DNA from: an uncultured Selenomonas sp.
Lineage (GTDB): Bacteria > Bacillota > Negativicutes > Selenomonadales > Selenomonadaceae
NCBI GenBank assembly: GCA_947167105.1
Contig: CAMVGU010000009.1
Span: 1 to 64,000 of the forward strand
Length of the DNA stretch: 64,000 nt
Reading direction: 5' to 3'
Shown here: positions 1 through 7,509 of the stretch, piece after piece
Layout: each line of letters starts with the position of its first letter
Numbering within the stretch: the first letter of the stretch is position 1
Notes under the pieces: model-generated
Told to the model about the DNA's origin: nothing
Databases searched by the model: none
The model's input: the letters and a program-made list of their open reading frames with translations, nothing else
Position numbers and translations under genes: made by a program

Positions 1-55
1 GGAAGTCCTGTGAGGGATGAAGCTAACCAATACTAATAGTTCGAGGGCTTAACTT
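1..55 (+). rRNA. rrl: 23S rRNA, 3' end only
   Basis: The first bases match the conserved 3' terminus of bacterial 23S rRNA: the AGCTAACC-ATACTAAT block followed by CGAGGGCTTAAC, which pairs with the 23S 5' end in helix 1. The rest of the gene and the 16S lie upstream of the window. The exact 3' end is an estimate from alignment in memory with E. coli and Bacillus ends. No tRNA is present between this and the 5S gene. Confidence 0.9.
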
Positions 56-119
56 GAGCTGAAATGTCCATACATAATTTCTTCTGTATAGTTTTGAGAG
101 AGCATAACTCTTTCTAATA

Positions 120-235
120 TCTGGTGACGATGCCTGCATGGTTCCACCTGTTCCCATTCCGAACACAGCAGTTAAGCATGCAGAGGCCGAAAGTACTTGT
201 CTGGAGACGGGCTGGGAGGATAGGAAGTTGCCAGT
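120..235 (+). rRNA. rrf: 5S ribosomal RNA
   Basis: About 116 nt with the hallmark loop C segment CCGAACACAGCAGTTAAGC. The 5' CTGGTGAC and the 3' GTTGCCAG pair to form helix I. Order and spacing after the 23S end (about 64 nt) are those of a normal rrn operon. The ends are defined by the helix I pairing, so may shift by a base or two. Confidence 0.93.
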
Positions 236-243
236 TAAGCACG

Positions 244-270
244 GGAGCGTCTGCAAGGGCGCTCCTTTTT
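244..270 (+). terminator. rrn operon terminator
   Basis: A 6-bp GGAGCG/CGCTCC stem with a 10-nt loop is followed by TTTTT, 9 nt after the 5S gene. It should end the rRNA transcript before lgt. Confidence 0.75.
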
Positions 271-306
271 GCATATTTATTTTATTCCTTGGAGGGGGTG
301 CTGCCC

Positions 307-1146
307 ATGCATCAATATCTTTTTTGGCTTGGAGATTTTCCTATACGCAGCTATGGAATTGTCATATCCCTGGCGATTGTCCTGGCGACTGGTGTGGGTT
401 ATTTTCTGGTAAAAAAAGAAGGGCGCGGCTACGAGAAGCATATCGCGGATATGGGGATATACTGCGGTGTGGCGGGGCTCCTCGGTGCACGGCTTTGGGA
501 TGTTTTTTTCTTTGACTGGGATTATTACTCACAGCATTTGACGGAACTCATGAATGTCTGGCAGGGAGGCATGGCCGTCCAGGGGGGGATTGTGCTGGGT
601 GTCTTGACTGGGGTAATCTATTGCAAGAAGCATAAGCTGGATACAATCTTCATGATGGATGTGCTGGCACCTGCAATTATCCTGGGTCAGGCCCTGGGGC
701 GCTGCGCAAATCTACTAAACGGTGATGCCTTCGGTGCGCCCACCGGAGGAGCCTTTGGCCTGCTCTATCCGTCCACGACGCTGGCCTATCACACATACGG
801 GCCTCAGCCTTTGTGGCCCGCAGAGGTCTGGGAAGGCCAGTTGGATTTTGTGATTTTCGCTTTACTCTTGATTTTCCGCTCCTTTGACCATGCACGCGGG
901 CAATGCTTTGCCTTGTATGTGTTCCTGTACAGTGCAGCGCGTTTCGGGCTGGAATATTTTCGGGGCGATTATACGGAAAAGGTGCTGGCAGGATTCACCA
1001 GTGCCCAAATGACCAGCGTAGTGGCTATGACACTGGCGGCTCTTGCTTTTTTGGCAGCGGGAGCCTACGCCCACAGGAAAAAGCAGGAAAAGCCCTTGCC
1101 GCCAATTATTGAAGCTACGTCCAGAAAGAAGAAGGCAGAACGCTAA
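307..1146 (+). CDS. lgt: Prolipoprotein diacylglyceryl transferase
   Basis: Integral membrane enzyme that moves diacylglycerol from phosphatidylglycerol to the lipobox cysteine of prolipoproteins, the first step of lipoprotein maturation. The 279-aa product has the usual Lgt length, about seven hydrophobic segments, the N-terminal FPIRSYGI block, and the Lgt signature region GRCANLLNGDAFG near residues 131-143, then a FRGDY motif near the C-terminus. The canonical GRxxNFxNxExxG appears here with Leu for Phe and Asp for Glu. ATG at 307 is chosen because GGAGGGGG ends 8 nt upstream; the frame stays open further upstream but runs into the 5S gene. It stands directly behind the rrn terminator. 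Confidence 0.95.
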   Translation: MHQYLFWLGDFPIRSYGIVISLAIVLATGVGYFLVKKEGRGYEKHIADMGIYCGVAGLLGARLWDVFFFDWDYYSQHLTELMNVWQGGMAVQGGIVLGVLTGVIYCKKHKLDTIFMMDVLAPAIILGQALGRCANLLNGDAFGAPTGGAFGLLYPSTTLAYHTYGPQPLWPAEVWEGQLDFVIFALLLIFRSFDHARGQCFALYVFLYSAARFGLEYFRGDYTEKVLAGFTSAQMTSVVAMTLAALAFLAAGAYAHRKKQEKPLPPIIEATSRKKKAER

Positions 1147-1290
1147 TCGGAATGATTTTGCCTTGCGAAATCTTGAATCCCTTTTAGGGACTAGCTTTCG
1201 CGTCGTAATGGCGTTATATCGGGACAAGCCCGATGAAACGCTAATCTGAGTGATTTCGCCTTGCGAAATCCTGAACAATGGCGTTATAAT
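1139..1290. repeat. Two tandem imperfect palindromic repeats
   Basis: Copy 1 (1139-1215) and copy 2 (1237-1286) both begin AACGCTAATC, carry a GATTT-GC-CTT-GCGAAATC hairpin (8-bp stem, perfect in copy 2) and end AATGGCGTT, so each is bounded by AACGC/GCGTT inverted ends. Copy 1 has an extra central TCCCTTTTAGGGA palindrome and a TTTCGCGTCGT arm. A further small hairpin ATCGGG/CCCGAT sits between them (1218-1234). The last 19 bases (1272-1290) are identical to one arm of the palindrome at 59606-59646. This marks a dispersed palindromic repeat, perhaps REP- or MITE-like. Confidence 0.75.
1261..1290 (+). promoter_or_regulatory. Putative promoter for the AdoMetDC-like gene and ileS
   Basis: TTGCGA, an 18-bp spacer and a perfect TATAAT box formed by the right end of the palindromic repeat. 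It lies 34 nt upstream of the next start codon. Function is inferred from motif match only. Confidence 0.5.
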
Positions 1291-1323
1291 GATTTATATT
1301 ATTTTTATTTAGGAGGAGATTGG

Positions 1324-1779
1324 GTGAAACTCATAGCCAGGCACCTGACAGTTGACCTGTATAATTGCAAGAACAGTAAACTGCTGGACATGGATGCCAT
1401 CAAACATACTGTGCGCGAAGCCCTTGCGGATATTGGCTTCGGGCTGATGGATCTCAACAGTGAGCAGGTCGATGATAGCCATTATGTGCTGCTGGCCATC
1501 TTGCGGGAGGGACATCTGGCCATGCACGTCTATACAAGCTTGAAATACGTCGCTCTCGATATTTTCCTGTGCAAGGAGAATGCACAGCCAGAGGCGCTGT
1601 CCAAGGCACTCCGCAGTTTCTTCAAGCCGGATAAGACCAAGACCACATTTTTGAAAAGGGGAGATTTCAATTCTCCCAAGGATGTGCGCCCAAAGGTCAA
1701 GACCAGGGTTGCGCCGTTGCGCAAGATACATAATACCGGTGCCAAGGTCATTCGCATCCTGGCACGCAGATCAAACTGA
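1324..1779 (+). CDS. S-adenosylmethionine decarboxylase-like protein lacking the cleavage serine
   Basis: A 151-aa homologue of the small bacterial AdoMet decarboxylase proenzyme (SpeH/SpeD class 1B). The family self-cleaves at Glu62-Ser63 to make the pyruvoyl cofactor, with His68 and Cys83 assisting (Thermotoga numbering). Here the block reads REGHLAMH: Glu62, Gly63, His64 and His68 are in register and Cys83 is kept, but Ser63 is Gly. It also has a basic C-terminal tail of about 40 residues (TFLKRGDF to ARRSN). As read it should not process and so is unlikely to be an active decarboxylase; a regulatory or other ligand-binding role is possible. GTG start chosen from AGGAGG 7 nt upstream. No speE is nearby. 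It precedes ileS by 38 nt, probably co-transcribed. Confidence 0.75.
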   Translation: MKLIARHLTVDLYNCKNSKLLDMDAIKHTVREALADIGFGLMDLNSEQVDDSHYVLLAILREGHLAMHVYTSLKYVALDIFLCKENAQPEALSKALRSFFKPDKTKTTFLKRGDFNSPKDVRPKVKTRVAPLRKIHNTGAKVIRILARRSN

Positions 1780-1817
1780 ATAAATTTGAGTTCTAGGCCG
1801 ATTAGGGGGCAAAAGTT

Positions 1818-4800
1818 TTGTATAGCAAGGTAGACACTAATCTGAATTTCGTCGAGCGCGAGCAGGAAGTTGCGCAGTTCTGGAAGGATAATGATATTGC
1901 TTTGCAGGCGGTGGAGCAGCGCCGGGGCAATGATACTTTTACGTTCTATGATGGCCCGCCGACGGCCAACGGCAAGCCGCATATTGGCCATGTACTGACG
2001 CGTGTCATCAAGGATATGCTGCCGCGCTACCAGTCCATGAAGGGCAAGAACGTGCTGCGCAAGGCTGGCTGGGATACTCACGGCCTGCCGGTAGAGCTGG
2101 AAGTGGAAAAGGCCGTAGGTATCAACGGCAAGGAACAGATTGAGGAATACGGCATCGAGCCCTTCATCAAGAAATGCCGTGAATCCGTCTGGAAGTACAA
2201 AGGCATGTGGGAGGAGTTCTCTGAGGTGGTGGGCTTTTGGGCCGATATGGATCACCCCTACATCACCTATGAGAACGACTTTATTGAGTCCGAGTGGTGG
2301 GCACTGAAGCAAATCTGGGACAAGGGCCTGCTCTACAAGGGCTATAAGGTGGTCCCCTATTGCCCCCGCTGCGGTACGCCCCTGTCCTCTCATGAGGTCG
2401 CTCAGGGCTATAAGGATGTGAAAGAGCGTTCCGCCATGGTGAAATTCAAGGCCAGGGATGAGGAGGCATATTTCCTTGCCTGGACGACTACACCCTGGAC
2501 ACTGCCTTCCAATCTCGGTCTGTGCGTGAACCCGGAAGTTGACTATGTTAAGGTCAAGGTCGCGGGTACAGTCTATTATATGGCTGAGGCACTGGTGGAG
2601 ACGGTCTTTGCAGATACGGAGGGCGAGCGCGAGATACTTGGCCGCTGTAAGGGCAGGGAACTTGAGTACCGTGAGTATGAGCCGCTCTACCCCTATGCGG
2701 TTGGCAAGCTGAAGAAAAAAGCCTTCTTTGTTGTCTGCGATGATTATGTGACGACTTCCGACGGTACAGGTATCGTGCATATTGCTCCCGCCTTCGGTGA
2801 AGATGATAACCGCGTGTGCATGAAGTACGATATGCCCTTTGTGCAGTATGTGGACAGCAAGGGTGAGATGACCGCTGACACGGACTGGCCGGGGGTGTTC
2901 GTGAAGGACGCGGATCCGCTGATCCTGGAGGATCTCAAGAAAAAGGGCAAGCTCTTTAAGGCTCCGAAGTTTGAGCACAGCTATCCCCACTGCTGGCGCT
3001 GCGATACGCCCCTCATTTACTATGCCCGCGAGTCCTGGTTTATCAAAATGACCGCCGTGCAGGAGGAGCTTATCGCGAACAACAAGACGGTGAACTGGAT
3101 TCCAAAGACCATCGGTGAGGGGCGCTTCGGCGACTGGCTGGAGCATTTGCAGGACTGGGGCATCAGCCGCAACCGCTACTGGGGCACGCCGCTGCCGGTC
3201 TGGGAGTGCAAGTGCGGACATCAGCACGCTATCGGCTCTATCGCCGAGCTGAAGGAAATGAGTGATAACTGCCCGGAGGAGATTGAGCTCCACCGTCCAT
3301 ACATTGACAAGGTGACTCTTAAGTGTCCGGAATGCGGGGGCGAAATGCACCGGGTGCCGGAGGTCATTGACTGCTGGTTTGATTCCGGCTCCATGCCCTT
3401 CGCCCAGTGGCACTATCCCTTTGAAAACAAGGAAATCTTTGAGAGCCGCTTCCCGGCAGATTTCATCTCGGAGGCTGTCGACCAGACCCGCGGCTGGTTC
3501 TACTCCCTGATTGCGATTTCGACGCTGCTCTTTCATAAAGCCCCCTACAAGAATGTCATTGTGCTTGGCCATGTTCAGGACGAGAACGGGCAAAAAATGT
3601 CAAAGTCCAAGGGCAATGCTGTTGATCCGATGGAGGCCCTCAGAAAGCATGGTGCAGACGCTATCCGCTGGTATTTCTATGAGAACAGCGCCCCCTGGCT
3701 GCCTAACCGCTTCCATGATGCGGCGGTGCAGGAAGGCCAGCGCAAGTTTATGGGCACTCTCTGGAACACCTACGCTTTCTTTGTGCTTTATGCAGATATT
3801 GATGAATTTGATGCCACCAAGCATGTCCTGGACTATGGGCAGCTTTCTGTGATGGATAAGTGGTGCCTGTCAAGGCTCAATACTATGGTGAGGGAAGTAG
3901 ATGACAATCTCTCGAACTACCGTGTAACCGAGGCAGCCAAGGCATTGCAGGATTTTGTGGACGAGCTTTCCAACTGGTACGTGCGCCGCAGCCGCAGCCG
4001 TTTCTGGGCGAAGGGTATGGAGCAGGACAAGATCAATGCCTACATGACCCTCTATACGGCTTTGGTGACGACAGCAAAGGCCGCTGCGCCGCTGATACCC
4101 TTTATGACGGAGAGCATCTATCGCAACCTTGTGTGCAGCATTGACAAGGCTGCGCCGATTTCCGTGCATCTGTGCGATTATCCTGAGGTGCATGAGGAGC
4201 AGATTGACACTGCCCTCGAGCAGCACATGGAACTGGTGCTGGATATTGTGGTTCTGGGGCGTGCTGCGCGCAACGAGGCGAATATCAAGAACCGCCAGCC
4301 CATTGGCCGTATGTTTGTGCAGGCGCCGTATGCGTTGCCGGACTTCTTCCGGGAGATTGTGGAAGACGAGCTGAACGTGAAGGAAGTTATCTTCAAGGAA
4401 AGCATGGAGGACTTCACGAAATATACCTTCAAGCCCCAGTTCCGCGTATTGGGCCCGAAGGTCGGCAAGGATATGGGCGCTGTGAAGCAGGCTCTCCTGA
4501 ACTTGCCGGGGGCCCAGGCCAAGGCAGAACTGGACAAAACAGGCACCCTGAAGGTCACGCTGGCAGATGGCAAGGAATATGCGTTGACGGCAGAGGATGT
4601 AGAAATCCAGACGGAGCAGACCGAGGGCTTCAACTGCCAGCATTACGGCGAGGTCAGTATCGCGCTGGAAACAACCCTGTCCGAAGAACTTCTGGAGGAA
4701 GGCTTTGTGCGTGAAATCATCAGCAAGGTGCAGACCATGCGCAAGGAGAACGGCTATGAGGTCACTGACCACATTACCGTTTCTCTCAGCGGCAATGACA

Positions 4801-4946
4801 AGCTTATTGCCATCGTGCATAAGCCGGAGAACGAGACCATGCTGAAGAACGTGACGCTGGCAGATACAGTCAAATACGGCAGCGCCGAAGGACACGCCAA
4901 GGAATGGAATATCAACGGTGAACAGATTACTCTGGCCGTGAGGTAG
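1818..4946 (+). CDS. ileS: Isoleucyl-tRNA synthetase, long (type 2-like) form
   Basis: Cytoplasmic enzyme charging tRNA-Ile. The 1042-aa protein shows class I motifs HIGH (residues 55-58) and KMSKS (about 594-598), the CP1 editing domain with WTTTPWTLPSN, zinc-like CxxC pairs (CPRCG, CWRC, CPECG), and a long C-terminal anticodon-binding and extension region. Length and sequence style match the eukaryote-like IleS2 group rather than the 930-aa IleS1 type, which ends in a zinc finger; IleS2 enzymes are known for mupirocin resistance, so that trait can be inferred but not shown. TTG start with an AGGGGG ribosome site. The 38-nt upstream gap has no room for a T-box. Confidence 0.96.
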   Translation: MYSKVDTNLNFVEREQEVAQFWKDNDIALQAVEQRRGNDTFTFYDGPPTANGKPHIGHVLTRVIKDMLPRYQSMKGKNVLRKAGWDTHGLPVELEVEKAVGINGKEQIEEYGIEPFIKKCRESVWKYKGMWEEFSEVVGFWADMDHPYITYENDFIESEWWALKQIWDKGLLYKGYKVVPYCPRCGTPLSSHEVAQGYKDVKERSAMVKFKARDEEAYFLAWTTTPWTLPSNLGLCVNPEVDYVKVKVAGTVYYMAEALVETVFADTEGEREILGRCKGRELEYREYEPLYPYAVGKLKKKAFFVVCDDYVTTSDGTGIVHIAPAFGEDDNRVCMKYDMPFVQYVDSKGEMTADTDWPGVFVKDADPLILEDLKKKGKLFKAPKFEHSYPHCWRCDTPLIYYARESWFIKMTAVQEELIANNKTVNWIPKTIGEGRFGDWLEHLQDWGISRNRYWGTPLPVWECKCGHQHAIGSIAELKEMSDNCPEEIELHRPYIDKVTLKCPECGGEMHRVPEVIDCWFDSGSMPFAQWHYPFENKEIFESRFPADFISEAVDQTRGWFYSLIAISTLLFHKAPYKNVIVLGHVQDENGQKMSKSKGNAVDPMEALRKHGADAIRWYFYENSAPWLPNRFHDAAVQEGQRKFMGTLWNTYAFFVLYADIDEFDATKHVLDYGQLSVMDKWCLSRLNTMVREVDDNLSNYRVTEAAKALQDFVDELSNWYVRRSRSRFWAKGMEQDKINAYMTLYTALVTTAKAAAPLIPFMTESIYRNLVCSIDKAAPISVHLCDYPEVHEEQIDTALEQHMELVLDIVVLGRAARNEANIKNRQPIGRMFVQAPYALPDFFREIVEDELNVKEVIFKESMEDFTKYTFKPQFRVLGPKVGKDMGAVKQALLNLPGAQAKAELDKTGTLKVTLADGKEYALTAEDVEIQTEQTEGFNCQHYGEVSIALETTLSEELLEEGFVREIISKVQTMRKENGYEVTDHITVSLSGNDKLIAIVHKPENETMLKNVTLADTVKYGSAEGHAKEWNINGEQITLAVR

Positions 4947-4950
4947 TTGA

Positions 4951-5304
4951 ATGCAGCAGACAGAAGCAACGGGAATACAGGAGCATACGCATGTATTAGC
5001 GGATGGCAGGGTCATCACTCACGGAGCTCATGGACATGTGCATAACCATACCCAGACCAAGGCAGTGCTGAACCGCATGTCACGCCTCATCGGGCATCTG
5101 GAATCTGTGAAGCGGATGGTGGAGGAAGGGCGTGACTGCCCTGAAATCCTGATACAGCTTTCGGCTGTGGACAGTGCCATCAAGGGCGTGAGCCGCATCA
5201 TCCTGAAGGATCATCTGGAGCATTGCGTGGTTGATGCTGTGCAGCATGATGACAAGGAGGCCCTGGCGCAGCTTAATAAGGCCATAGATCAATTCTTGAA
5301 GTGA
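4951..5304 (+). CDS. CsoR/RcnR-family metal-sensing repressor with His-rich N-terminus
   Basis: A 117-aa all-helical DUF156 repressor. The core ligands are Cys63 (in the RDCPEIL block), His88 and Cys92, the Cys-His-Cys set of Cu(I) sensors such as CsoR. The family usually binds DNA as a tetramer and lets go when metal binds. The first 33 residues are unusual, with seven histidines (12, 14, 24, 27, 29, 31, 33), which suggests nickel, cobalt or zinc binding or metal storage in addition. It starts 5 nt after ileS with a weak ribosome site, so translation may be coupled. No copper or nickel exporter is nearby, so the target is unknown. Confidence 0.85.
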   Translation: MQQTEATGIQEHTHVLADGRVITHGAHGHVHNHTQTKAVLNRMSRLIGHLESVKRMVEEGRDCPEILIQLSAVDSAIKGVSRIILKDHLEHCVVDAVQHDDKEALAQLNKAIDQFLK

Positions 5305-5333
5305 GAGCGTGGCAGCAGGAAGGTAGGTTCTCC

Positions 5334-5678
5334 ATGAGCGAACAATATCCGGTGGTGGACTATGAGCAGGGCTTGGCAAGATTCCTGGGGAATGATAATC
5401 TCTACAGGAAATTCCTGAACAAATTCCTAAATGATGGCTCAGAAGCAGCTTTTCAGGACGCGTTGAAGGCAGGGGATCTGAAACAGGCGGAAAAGGACGT
5501 GCATACCTTGAAAGGCACGGCTGGCAATCTCAGCCTGCTCAGGCTCTTTCATGCAGCGGATGCAGCCGTGCAGGCTTTGCGCAGCGGCTGCAGCGGAGAG
5601 GAGCTTGCAAGGCTTGCCGCCAGGGTGGCGGAGGAGAAGGCCCTGACTTGCAGGAAGATACAGGAGCTTCTGAGCTGA
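5334..5678 (+). CDS. Stand-alone histidine phosphotransfer (Hpt) domain protein
   Basis: A 114-aa helical protein with the Hpt phosphorylation motif HTLKGTAGNLS; His57 is the predicted phospho-acceptor. Such proteins relay phosphate between hybrid sensor kinases and response regulators. No kinase or regulator is in the window, so its partners are encoded elsewhere. ATG at 5334 is taken because an AGGAAGG site precedes it; an in-frame GTG 33 nt upstream is less likely. It follows the CsoR gene by 29 nt and probably belongs to the ileS transcript. Confidence 0.85.
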   Translation: MSEQYPVVDYEQGLARFLGNDNLYRKFLNKFLNDGSEAAFQDALKAGDLKQAEKDVHTLKGTAGNLSLLRLFHAADAAVQALRSGCSGEELARLAARVAEEKALTCRKIQELLS

Positions 5679-5709
5679 TAGGTTCGGTTTACAGCTTTCC
5701 AAGGGGAGC

Positions 5710-5738
5710 TTGCAAAAAACTGTTCAATATGTTATGGT
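5710..5738 (+). promoter_or_regulatory. Putative leuA promoter
   Basis: TTGCAA, 17-bp spacer, TATGGT, giving a start near 5745 and a roughly 95-nt leader. The leader can pair GGACGA (5754-5759) with TCGTCC (5799-5804) around an internal 5-bp TGCTC/GAGCA hairpin. No T-box consensus or leucine-codon run is seen, so the leader's role is open. Confidence 0.5.
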
Positions 5739-5841
5739 AGTAAACAATATGAAGGACGATGCTCGCACCGAGAGCAGCTAACGGACAGGAATGGCCTTTC
5801 GTCCATGAGGGCGGGAGGCTTTTCTGATGGAGGGAAGCACG

Positions 5842-7509
5842 ATGATGAACTATCAGAAATATAGCAAGGGATATTTCATGCCACCGGAAATAAATCTTGA
5901 CTGGCTGAAGAAGGATGCCCCGGAGAAAGCGCCTATCTGGTGCAGCGTGGATCTGCGCGACGGCAACCAGTCGCTGATGATCCCCATGAGCCTTGATGAA
6001 AAACTGGAATTCTACAAGATGCTGCTGAAGGTGGGCTTCAAGGAAATCGAGGTGGGGTTCCCGGCAGCCTCGGAGACGGAGTACGCATTTTTGCGCCGCT
6101 TGGTGGAGGATAATCTGATTCCTGATGACGTGACCATCCAGGTGCTGACCCAGGCCCGCGAGCACATCATCAGGAAGACCTTTGAGTCTTTGGATGGGGT
6201 GAAGAATGCCATTGTCCATGTCTATAACTCCACCTCTGTGGCACAGCGCGAGCAGGTATTCAAGAAGAACAAGCCGGAAGTCAAGGAAATAGCCATTGAG
6301 GGCGCACAGATGCTCAAGGAACTGACCGAGCAGGCCGGTGCCGGCTATCGCTTTGAATATTCGCCGGAGAGCTTTACCGGCACGGAGCCTGAGTATGCGC
6401 TGGAAGTCTGCAACGCAGTGCTGGATGTCTGGCAGCCGACAGCAGACCGCAAGGCCATCATCAACCTGCCGGTTACGGTAGAAATGTCCATGCCCCATGT
6501 CTATGGCATGCAGGTTGCTTATGTGGATAAGTATTTGAAGCATCGTGAAAATGTCGTCCTTTCCCTGCATCCCCATAACGATCGAGGCTGTGGCGTGGCT
6601 GATACGGAAATGGGGCTCCTGGCTGGCGCAGACCGCGTGGAAGGAACTCTCTTTGGCAATGGGGAGCGCACAGGCAATGTGGATATCGTGACCGTTGCGA
6701 TGAATATGTTTGCCCTTGGCGTTGACCCGAAACTGGATTTTTCCAATATGCCTGAGCTGGTCGATATCTATGAGCGGGTGACGCGCATGCAGGTAAATCC
6801 GCGTCAGCCCTACTCCGGCAAGTTCGTGTTTGCGGCCTTCTCCGGCTCCCATCAGGATGCTATCGCGAAGGGCATGAAGTGGAAAGAGGAGAAGAATCCT
6901 GACAAGTGGACACTGCCCTATCTGTATATCGACCCGAAGGATGTGGGCCGGGAGTACGACGGTGATGTCATCCGCATCAACAGCCAGTCCGGCAAGGGCG
7001 GCGTAGGCTTCATCATGGAGCAGAAGTACGGTATCGAAATGCCGAAGAAGATGCGGGAGGATTTCGGTTACTTCGTGAAGAATGTTTCCGATCACAAGCA
7101 CAAGGAACTCATGCCGGATGAAATCTATCAGATTTTCATGGACGAGTATGTGAATGTCACAAGTCCCTATCAGTTGGTTGATTTCCTGCTGAGGAAGGAA
7201 CCGGACGGTACCCGCAAGGGCACGTTAGACCTGCTGGTGGATGGCGTGCAGGAGACTTTCATTGCCAGGGGCAACGGACGCCTGGATGCCATCTCGAATG
7301 CCATGCAGAAAAACCTGGATATAAGCTACAAGGATCTAACCTACAGTGAGCACGCCCTGGAAATCGGCCAGAGTTCCCGCGCCATGGCCTATATCGGCAT
7401 AGTTGGCAATTCCCATATCACCTGGGGGGCAGGAATGGATACCGATATTATCACGGCCTCGATCCAGGCGCTGTTCTCCGCCATCAACCGCATGAAGGCA
7501 GGCAAGTAA
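5842..7509 (+). CDS. leuA: 2-isopropylmalate synthase (LeuA2 type)
   Basis: Condenses acetyl-CoA with 2-ketoisovalerate, the committed step of leucine synthesis. The 555-aa protein has the DLRDGNQ motif (about residues 37-43) of the HMGL-like TIM barrel, the metal-binding HPHNDRG motif, the LFGNGERTGN loop and a C-terminal LeuA allosteric domain with the leucine-feedback fold. Length and sequence fit the longer type 2 family seen in actinobacteria and yeasts. ATG at 5842 follows GGAGGG by 7 nt; an in-frame ATG at 5827 also has a GGGAGG site and cannot be excluded. Other leu genes are not adjacent. Confidence 0.94.
   Translation: MMNYQKYSKGYFMPPEINLDWLKKDAPEKAPIWCSVDLRDGNQSLMIPMSLDEKLEFYKMLLKVGFKEIEVGFPAASETEYAFLRRLVEDNLIPDDVTIQVLTQAREHIIRKTFESLDGVKNAIVHVYNSTSVAQREQVFKKNKPEVKEIAIEGAQMLKELTEQAGAGYRFEYSPESFTGTEPEYALEVCNAVLDVWQPTADRKAIINLPVTVEMSMPHVYGMQVAYVDKYLKHRENVVLSLHPHNDRGCGVADTEMGLLAGADRVEGTLFGNGERTGNVDIVTVAMNMFALGVDPKLDFSNMPELVDIYERVTRMQVNPRQPYSGKFVFAAFSGSHQDAIAKGMKWKEEKNPDKWTLPYLYIDPKDVGREYDGDVIRINSQSGKGGVGFIMEQKYGIEMPKKMREDFGYFVKNVSDHKHKELMPDEIYQIFMDEYVNVTSPYQLVDFLLRKEPDGTRKGTLDLLVDGVQETFIARGNGRLDAISNAMQKNLDISYKDLTYSEHALEIGQSSRAMAYIGIVGNSHITWGAGMDTDIITASIQALFSAINRMKAGK

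Follow-up and report, generated by a model that had tools for sequence, protein, structure and literature searches.

The window, a stretch of 64,000 nucleotides, carries near its beginning a gene for an AdoMet decarboxylase (AdoMetDC) homologue in which glycine occupies the place of the pyruvoyl-forming serine. The protein belongs to a family that is almost universal in the sampled Negativicutes and that combines an AdoMetDC domain with a basic C-terminal tail, the best-conserved part of the Gly63 proteins and a feature overlooked in the original prediction. We regard it as reasonably probable, if far from certain, that this family is a class-wide, non-catalytic and tail-driven pseudoenzyme derived from AdoMetDC.

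Gene, domain and catalytic register

The gene is intact and preceded by the ribosome-binding site AGGAGGAG, as the original prediction had it, and its translation comprises 151 residues from a GTG codon, including LLAILREGHLAMHVYTSLKYVALDIFLC (Table 1). An alternative start at the TTG at position 1261, which would yield 172 residues, is disfavoured, since alignments of homologues begin at the GTG. The promoter that had also been proposed is present as a sequence, yet the numbers obtained with shuffled sequences make it weak evidence. A 39-nucleotide direct repeat (90% identical) lies upstream of the gene at 1139-1177 and 1237-1275, the second copy of which overlaps the promoter-like site, and AATGGCGTTATA is found at 1207 and again at 1277. 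A search of window positions 1-6000 against Rfam at gathering thresholds revealed no leader riboswitch; its only match was a 5S rRNA, located at 120-236 just upstream of lgt and the tailed gene.

The position before ileS, which starts at 1818, was correctly noted for the window but is not conserved. Among 95 family loci, ileS follows immediately downstream on the same strand in the window locus alone, lgt is found directly upstream in 25, and the neighbours differ among nine more family loci that were inspected by eye. A functional tie to ileS or translation based on gene order was rejected on these grounds. Five of 20 named loci (L103, L108, L109, L116 and L136) have a 5S or 23S rRNA close to the gene, which is too few for a claim.

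Table 1. Features of the tailed gene in the window (all positions refer to the window)
Feature	Position	Strand	Remarks
Promoter-like TTGCGA-18-TATAAT	1261..1290	+	weak: 2 such sites versus a shuffle mean of 1.1
Ribosome-binding site AGGAGGAG	1311..1318	+	read off the sequence
Gene, tailed AdoMetDC-like putative pseudoenzyme	1324..1779	+	151 aa, GTG start, stop 1777-1779
Codon 63, GGA (Gly) replacing the pyruvoyl-forming Ser	1510..1512	+	
His64 codon	1513..1515	+	His in 92/95 members
His68 codon	1525..1527	+	His in 86/95 members
Cys83 codon	1570..1572	+	Cys in 80/95 members
RGDF motif, residues 112-115, end of the AdoMetDC domain	1657..1668	+	R112 in 95/95, G113 in 94/95
Family-specific basic tail, residues 116-151	1669..1776	+	DVRPK 120-124, predicted strand 124-129 and helix 138-150

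The assignment to the AdoMetDC fold rests on profiles as well as on a structural model. Residues 7-113 match the entire Pfam profile AdoMet_dc (PF02675; positions 1-107 of 107) with 84.6 bits against a cut-off of 25, and the equivalog cut-off of TIGR03330, which denotes bona fide class 1b AdoMetDC, is narrowly missed (74.7 versus 75.65 bits); the Ser63 required there for pyruvoyl formation is Gly63 in the window protein. An AlphaFold2 model adopts the AdoMetDC fold (mean pLDDT 86.4), and this predicted structure superimposes on 1vr7 with a Z score of 17.3 and an rmsd of 2.1 over 117 residues in a comparison that covered model residues 1-131 only. The structure matches listed also include the prozyme complex, the C-terminal half of AdoMetDC from eukaryotes and the domain of spermine synthase that resembles AdoMetDC, as examples of the fold being used without catalysis.

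In a family-profile alignment, residues 1-116 of the window protein pair with residues 1-116 of the Thermotoga maritima enzyme (1tlu). Therefore, Glu62, Gly63, His64, His68 and Cys83 are in register, with Gly63 between Glu62 and His64 at the place of the pyruvoyl-forming Ser63, and the exact correspondence with SpeH on which the original prediction was built is confirmed. According to its deposited title, 1tmi is the S63A form of the T. maritima enzyme, a non-processing mutant. A Gly63 protein cannot form a pyruvoyl group from residue 63 and should remain one unprocessed chain.

Catalytic decay and a conserved tail across the Negativicutes

A profile search detected the family in 246 of 252 Negativicutes genomes, or 228 of 234 among the better genomes, and from this class-wide set the sequences of 95 and 24 more members were read. 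Among the genomes of relatives, 96 of 100 gave a match at E<=0.001, most matches reaching residue 147-151; 95 of these were aligned, and G040 was left out because its copy (L287, L288) is frameshifted between core and tail, owing either to a true break or to an assembly error. In a search of 398 phylum-wide genomes, all 14 matches from the class of the window (window included) scored at least 76.8 bits, and the listed matches from other classes did not exceed 55.1 bits, most of them ending near residue 113-128. The class was recognised as Negativicutes by the titles of 63 loci in public genomes, which name Anaerovibrio, Schwartzia, Megamonas, Pectinatus, Propionispira, Sporomusa, Pelosinus, Lucifera and Selenomonadales, and in a few cases only a Bacillota bacterium; these loci were collected with one N-terminal pattern, which is no proof of absence elsewhere, and one of them (L163) is a fragment. 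Of the 63, 50 (49 and the window) are in A2 and 38 plus the window in A3. Since some of these loci apparently share their contigs with members of the genome set, the two sets were never pooled in one count. The window duplicate L001 and the ordinary SpeH proteins L098 and L099 were not counted in the family, and L098 served as an outgroup.

Residue 63 is Gly in 72 of the 95 aligned members, Ser in 17, Thr and Ala in two each, and Cys and His in one each. The 24 further members, which stem from other families of the class, have Ser (9), Gly (8), Cys (3), Phe (2), Ala (1) or Thr (1) at this position, and only six of them retain Cys83. Ser63, His68 and Cys83 are found together in 13 of the 95 and 2 of the 24, i.e., in 15 of 119 tailed members. 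All controls keep the serine, namely 21 of 21 ordinary SpeH (20 from other classes and one from within the class) and 78 of 78 viral AdoMetDC homologues; thus, its loss is a trait of the tailed family and not of AdoMetDC relatives in general, and chance is excluded as a cause of Gly63. Whether a clade shares this glycine had been proposed as a check, and a large one does. As 72 of 95 homologues, each read in a different genome and with that of the window among them, have Gly63, a sequencing error at the codon is excluded as well. A functional preference for glycine is doubtful, because each of the 17 Ser63 codons is AGC or AGT and lies one transition away from GGC or GGT (65 of the 72 Gly rows were read, seven being mis-registered owing to insertions); the prevalence of Gly may be mutational rather than functionally favoured.

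Other residues of the site have fared unequally. Among the 72 Gly63 members, His64 is present in 70, His68 in 64, Asp79 in all 72 and Cys83 in 66, and 58 possess His64, His68 and Cys83 together. The residues around the active site that Ser63 members have in common with SpeH (Phe49, Pro51, Gly53, Glu72, Thr82 and Gly84) occur in most Ser63 members and are missing from most Gly63 members. In the Sporomusa loci L136, L138 and L146, another route to a dead site is seen: the DFG of RGDFG is deleted and Cys83 is replaced by Tyr, with Ser63 retained. The long-branch member L077 has Ser63 within the Gly63 clade and has lost Cys83.

The tail extends for about 36 residues beyond RGDF and follows the family pattern RGDFG-x3-DMKPKxK, succeeded by a predicted strand and helix, and it is rich in Lys and Arg. 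Within its D[MV][KR]PK motif, Pro123 is invariant (95/95), and the median net charge over 88 proteins is +9 for the tail versus -1 for the core. None of the 21 ordinary SpeH and 78 viral homologues examined carries the tail, and used alone as a query of the window's genome it hits one place, the tailed gene itself. AlphaFold2 predicts the tail with its strand and helix at low confidence (pLDDT about 50-60 for the helix), and the same elements appear in the model of a Ser63 homologue. Compared with solved structures, the tail alone gave nothing credible (best E 0.65); a weak early match to ribosomal protein eL18 (E 0.11) did not recur with a profile and was dropped.

Six changes are required for Gly63 and seven for Ser63 on a tree built from 95 full-length members. 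When the tree is rooted with 21 SpeH, the outgroup falls on one side (support 94/78), and Ser versus non-Ser requires seven changes, two of which are forced by the starred branches alone; short alignments limit the resolution, and six long-branch rows (L089, L092-L096) were kept out of the rooted tree. With Ser in all outgroup rows, these sequences are most simply explained by an ancestral Ser that was lost several times, and Gly63 was probably reached several times.

The two groups differ in where they are conserved. The mean column entropy of Ser63 members is 0.47 bits for residues 55-84 versus 1.15 bits for residues 123-146, and the corresponding values of Gly63 members are 1.72 and 1.09 bits. 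To allow for the greater size and diversity of the Gly63 group, pairs were compared that are equally similar in the rest of the protein. Where identity in that rest is 50-65%, 14 pairs with Ser63 and Cys83 share 0.91 of the active segment and 0.58 of the tail, whereas 49 Gly63 pairs share 0.61 and 0.86, respectively. When disjoint pairs are used, 6 of 6 pairs of catalytically complete members agree better in the active segment than in the tail, and 19 of 22 Gly63 pairs agree better in the tail (Fisher p = 0.0002 for the contrast). This is strong evidence, though not fully independent as the complete members cluster in one part of the tree, and it suggests that constraint has moved from the active site to the tail in Gly63 proteins. 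The tailed family is under purifying selection: whole-gene dN/dS ranges from 0.009 to 0.17 in 13 of 14 close pairs, with dS saturated in the remaining pair, and is lower for residues 102-151 than for residues 1-101 in 14 of 14 pairs, dS being high in several.

Functional readings of the tailed protein

The genome of the window (3.15 Mb, 66 contigs, 99.7% complete) holds a second AdoMetDC, an E. coli-type speD with the serine in place (KSHVTVH) on contig C27, and a spermidine synthase gene (speE) within about 2 kb of it. Both genes that the original prediction suggested looking for are thus present side by side, and the cell has a normal spermidine route without the tailed gene. In 14 other genomes, selected for a completeness of 90% or more and a contamination of 5% or less, the tailed protein is the only AdoMet_dc protein, and its residue 63 is Gly in every case (G001, G003, G004, G007, G013, G015, G018, G020, G029, G045, G046, G060, G089 and G098). 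The SpeD of the window's genome found no match in these 14 when used as a query, and in five of them (G007, G015, G018, G029 and G045) no spermidine synthase was matched at E<=1e-10 either. By contrast, each of the 17 genomes carrying a Ser63 copy has two or more AdoMet_dc matches, along with a match to spermidine synthase. A SpeE homologue without any AdoMetDC other than the tailed Gly63 protein was observed in G001-G005, G013, G020, G041, G046, G060, G089 and G098, and G074 has SpeE and no AdoMet_dc match. In G062 and G082, an ordinary SpeH (L098 and L099, respectively) coexists with a tailed Ser63 copy, which makes even the catalytically complete tailed copy supernumerary in these genomes.

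The original suggestion of a pseudoenzyme gains support from the clade-wide Gly63, the genuine speD and speE elsewhere in the genome and the low dN/dS. As a plausible course of events, a second, tail-bearing gene of the SpeH type would have arisen at or near the base of the Negativicutes beside an ordinary speD. The catalytic site would then have been lost repeatedly, through exchange of Ser63 for Gly, Ala, Cys, Thr, Phe or His, or of Cys83 for Phe, Tyr or Asn, and the RGDFG-x3-DMKPKxK pattern with its basic strand-helix tail would have been retained, becoming the most constrained part of the Gly63 proteins. The unprocessed protein presumably acts without catalysis; it may dimerise like SpeH, contact an acidic partner through its positively charged tail and possibly be tuned by a polyamine or another small molecule in the remaining pocket. 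That the tail is the working end is suggested by its conservation. RNA or the ribosome is favoured as the partner by the charge of the tail, which is a guess that we hold tentatively. A single-copy, class-wide protein in which a polyamine enzyme has turned into a nucleic-acid- or ribosome-binding regulator, with the former active site as a scaffold or polyamine-responsive pocket and the newly gained basic tail as the working part, is conceivable on the same footing and would leave catalysis free to be lost again and again. Some observations speak against this view: the retention of His64, His68 and Cys83 in so many Gly63 members is more than a purely tail-driven protein would need, and the tail has a low-confidence model and no credible counterpart of solved structure. 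The ancestral role may have been enzymatic, since 13 of 95 members still look catalytically complete.

The retained residues are what a small-molecule sensor would call for, in which the old active site binds AdoMet, decarboxylated AdoMet or a polyamine and the tail provides the output. Such a class-wide polyamine sensor would have a use, as Negativicutes attach cadaverine or putrescine to peptidoglycan (PMC10628300). We nonetheless consider a sensor rather unlikely, because the other six residues around the site are lost in most Gly63 members and conservation of the former active segment falls short of that of the tail. The loss of these six residues leaves the AdoMet sensing of the original prediction without support; a ligand other than AdoMet is conceivable given the 58 of 72 Gly63 members that keep the two histidines and the cysteine. 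Conservation of these residues would also suit an enzyme with a different chemistry, working either with a cofactor made from some other residue or by cofactor-free cleavage of AdoMet, and a weak match to phage SAM lyase (6zm9, Z 7.0) points the same way, at a level that possibly reflects just a common arrangement. However, no conserved Ser, Thr or Cys stands in for residue 63, and many members have lost Cys83 and His68 and kept the tail, so that this explanation is very improbable.

A partner role is improbable as well, if less remote. Here, the dead paralogue would bind the live SpeD, or SpeE, and regulate it in the manner of the trypanosome prozyme and its AdoMetDC. The live speD and speE in the window's genome are in line with it, as are the use of the fold as a non-catalytic domain in spermine synthase and the precedent of dead AdoMetDC paralogues that activate a live enzyme (PMC5201418). 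Yet, as the 14 good genomes contain no other AdoMetDC and five of them no SpeE either, the tailed protein cannot be a partner of SpeD or SpeE only. Finally, the many different losses of catalytic residues and the one frameshifted copy (G040) might indicate a decaying relic without function, but the presence in 246 of 252 genomes of the class, dN/dS values well below 1 and a tail that is nearly unchanged between distant members bring this idea close to refutation.

Significance and relation to known systems

We found no description of the tailed family in the PMC literature searched, nor essentiality data for Veillonella, and PMC10407285 mentions neither Negativicutes, Firmicutes nor a pseudoenzyme. 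The name of an enzyme in genome annotation probably hides a different job here. Because the protein is near-universal in the sampled class and the NCBI AdoMet decarboxylase model matches 50 of 50 relatives scanned (E<=1e-5), name-based polyamine pathways in gut, rumen and oral Negativicutes can be wrong, and some of these genomes have no other AdoMetDC. Moreover, the family constitutes a natural series of one gene: its copies range from catalytically complete through partly decayed to dead, all with the same conserved tail, so that a move of constraint away from an active site and onto a new element is directly testable.

Dead AdoMetDC paralogues (the prozyme, PMC5201418) and degraded domains in fusions (PMC10407285) are known already. 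Among the closest systems is the class 1b enzyme SpeH of T. maritima (TM0655; 1tlu, 1vr7 and 1tmi), with which the window protein shares fold and register as well as His64, His68, Asp79 and Cys83. It differs from TM0655 in having Gly63 for Ser63 and in not keeping Phe49, Pro51, Gly53, Glu72, Thr82 and Gly84, and from the 21 SpeH examined in about 36 extra basic C-terminal residues.

The SpeD-derived arginine and ornithine decarboxylases resemble the tailed protein in being a second SpeD homologue in the genome with a presumably new role; in PMC10407285, Ser63, His68 and Cys83 are expected to be conserved in these enzymes. Two SpeD homologues are likewise found in the window's genome, but the processing serine is replaced by Gly63. 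The same source describes a degenerate SpeD domain in the SpeD-SpeD fusions of Lentisphaerota (V. vadensis), which is fused to a live SpeD, unlike the stand-alone, class-wide and tailed gene. The N-terminal domain of human spermine synthase (3c6k) has the AdoMetDC fold (Z 11.2 over 99 residues) and is associated with dimerisation (PMC11203672); it belongs to an aminopropyltransferase, whereas the window protein is separate. The AdoMetDC prozyme of T. brucei (5tvm, 6bm7) is likewise a dead AdoMetDC paralogue, and in the window's genome, too, a dead residue is accompanied by a live paralogue, the SpeD on C27. The prozyme, however, is eukaryotic, has two domains and functions in a complex with its live partner (PMC5201418), whereas the tailed protein is a single domain with a tail of its own and also occurs where a live partner is missing, in the 14 genomes without any other AdoMetDC.
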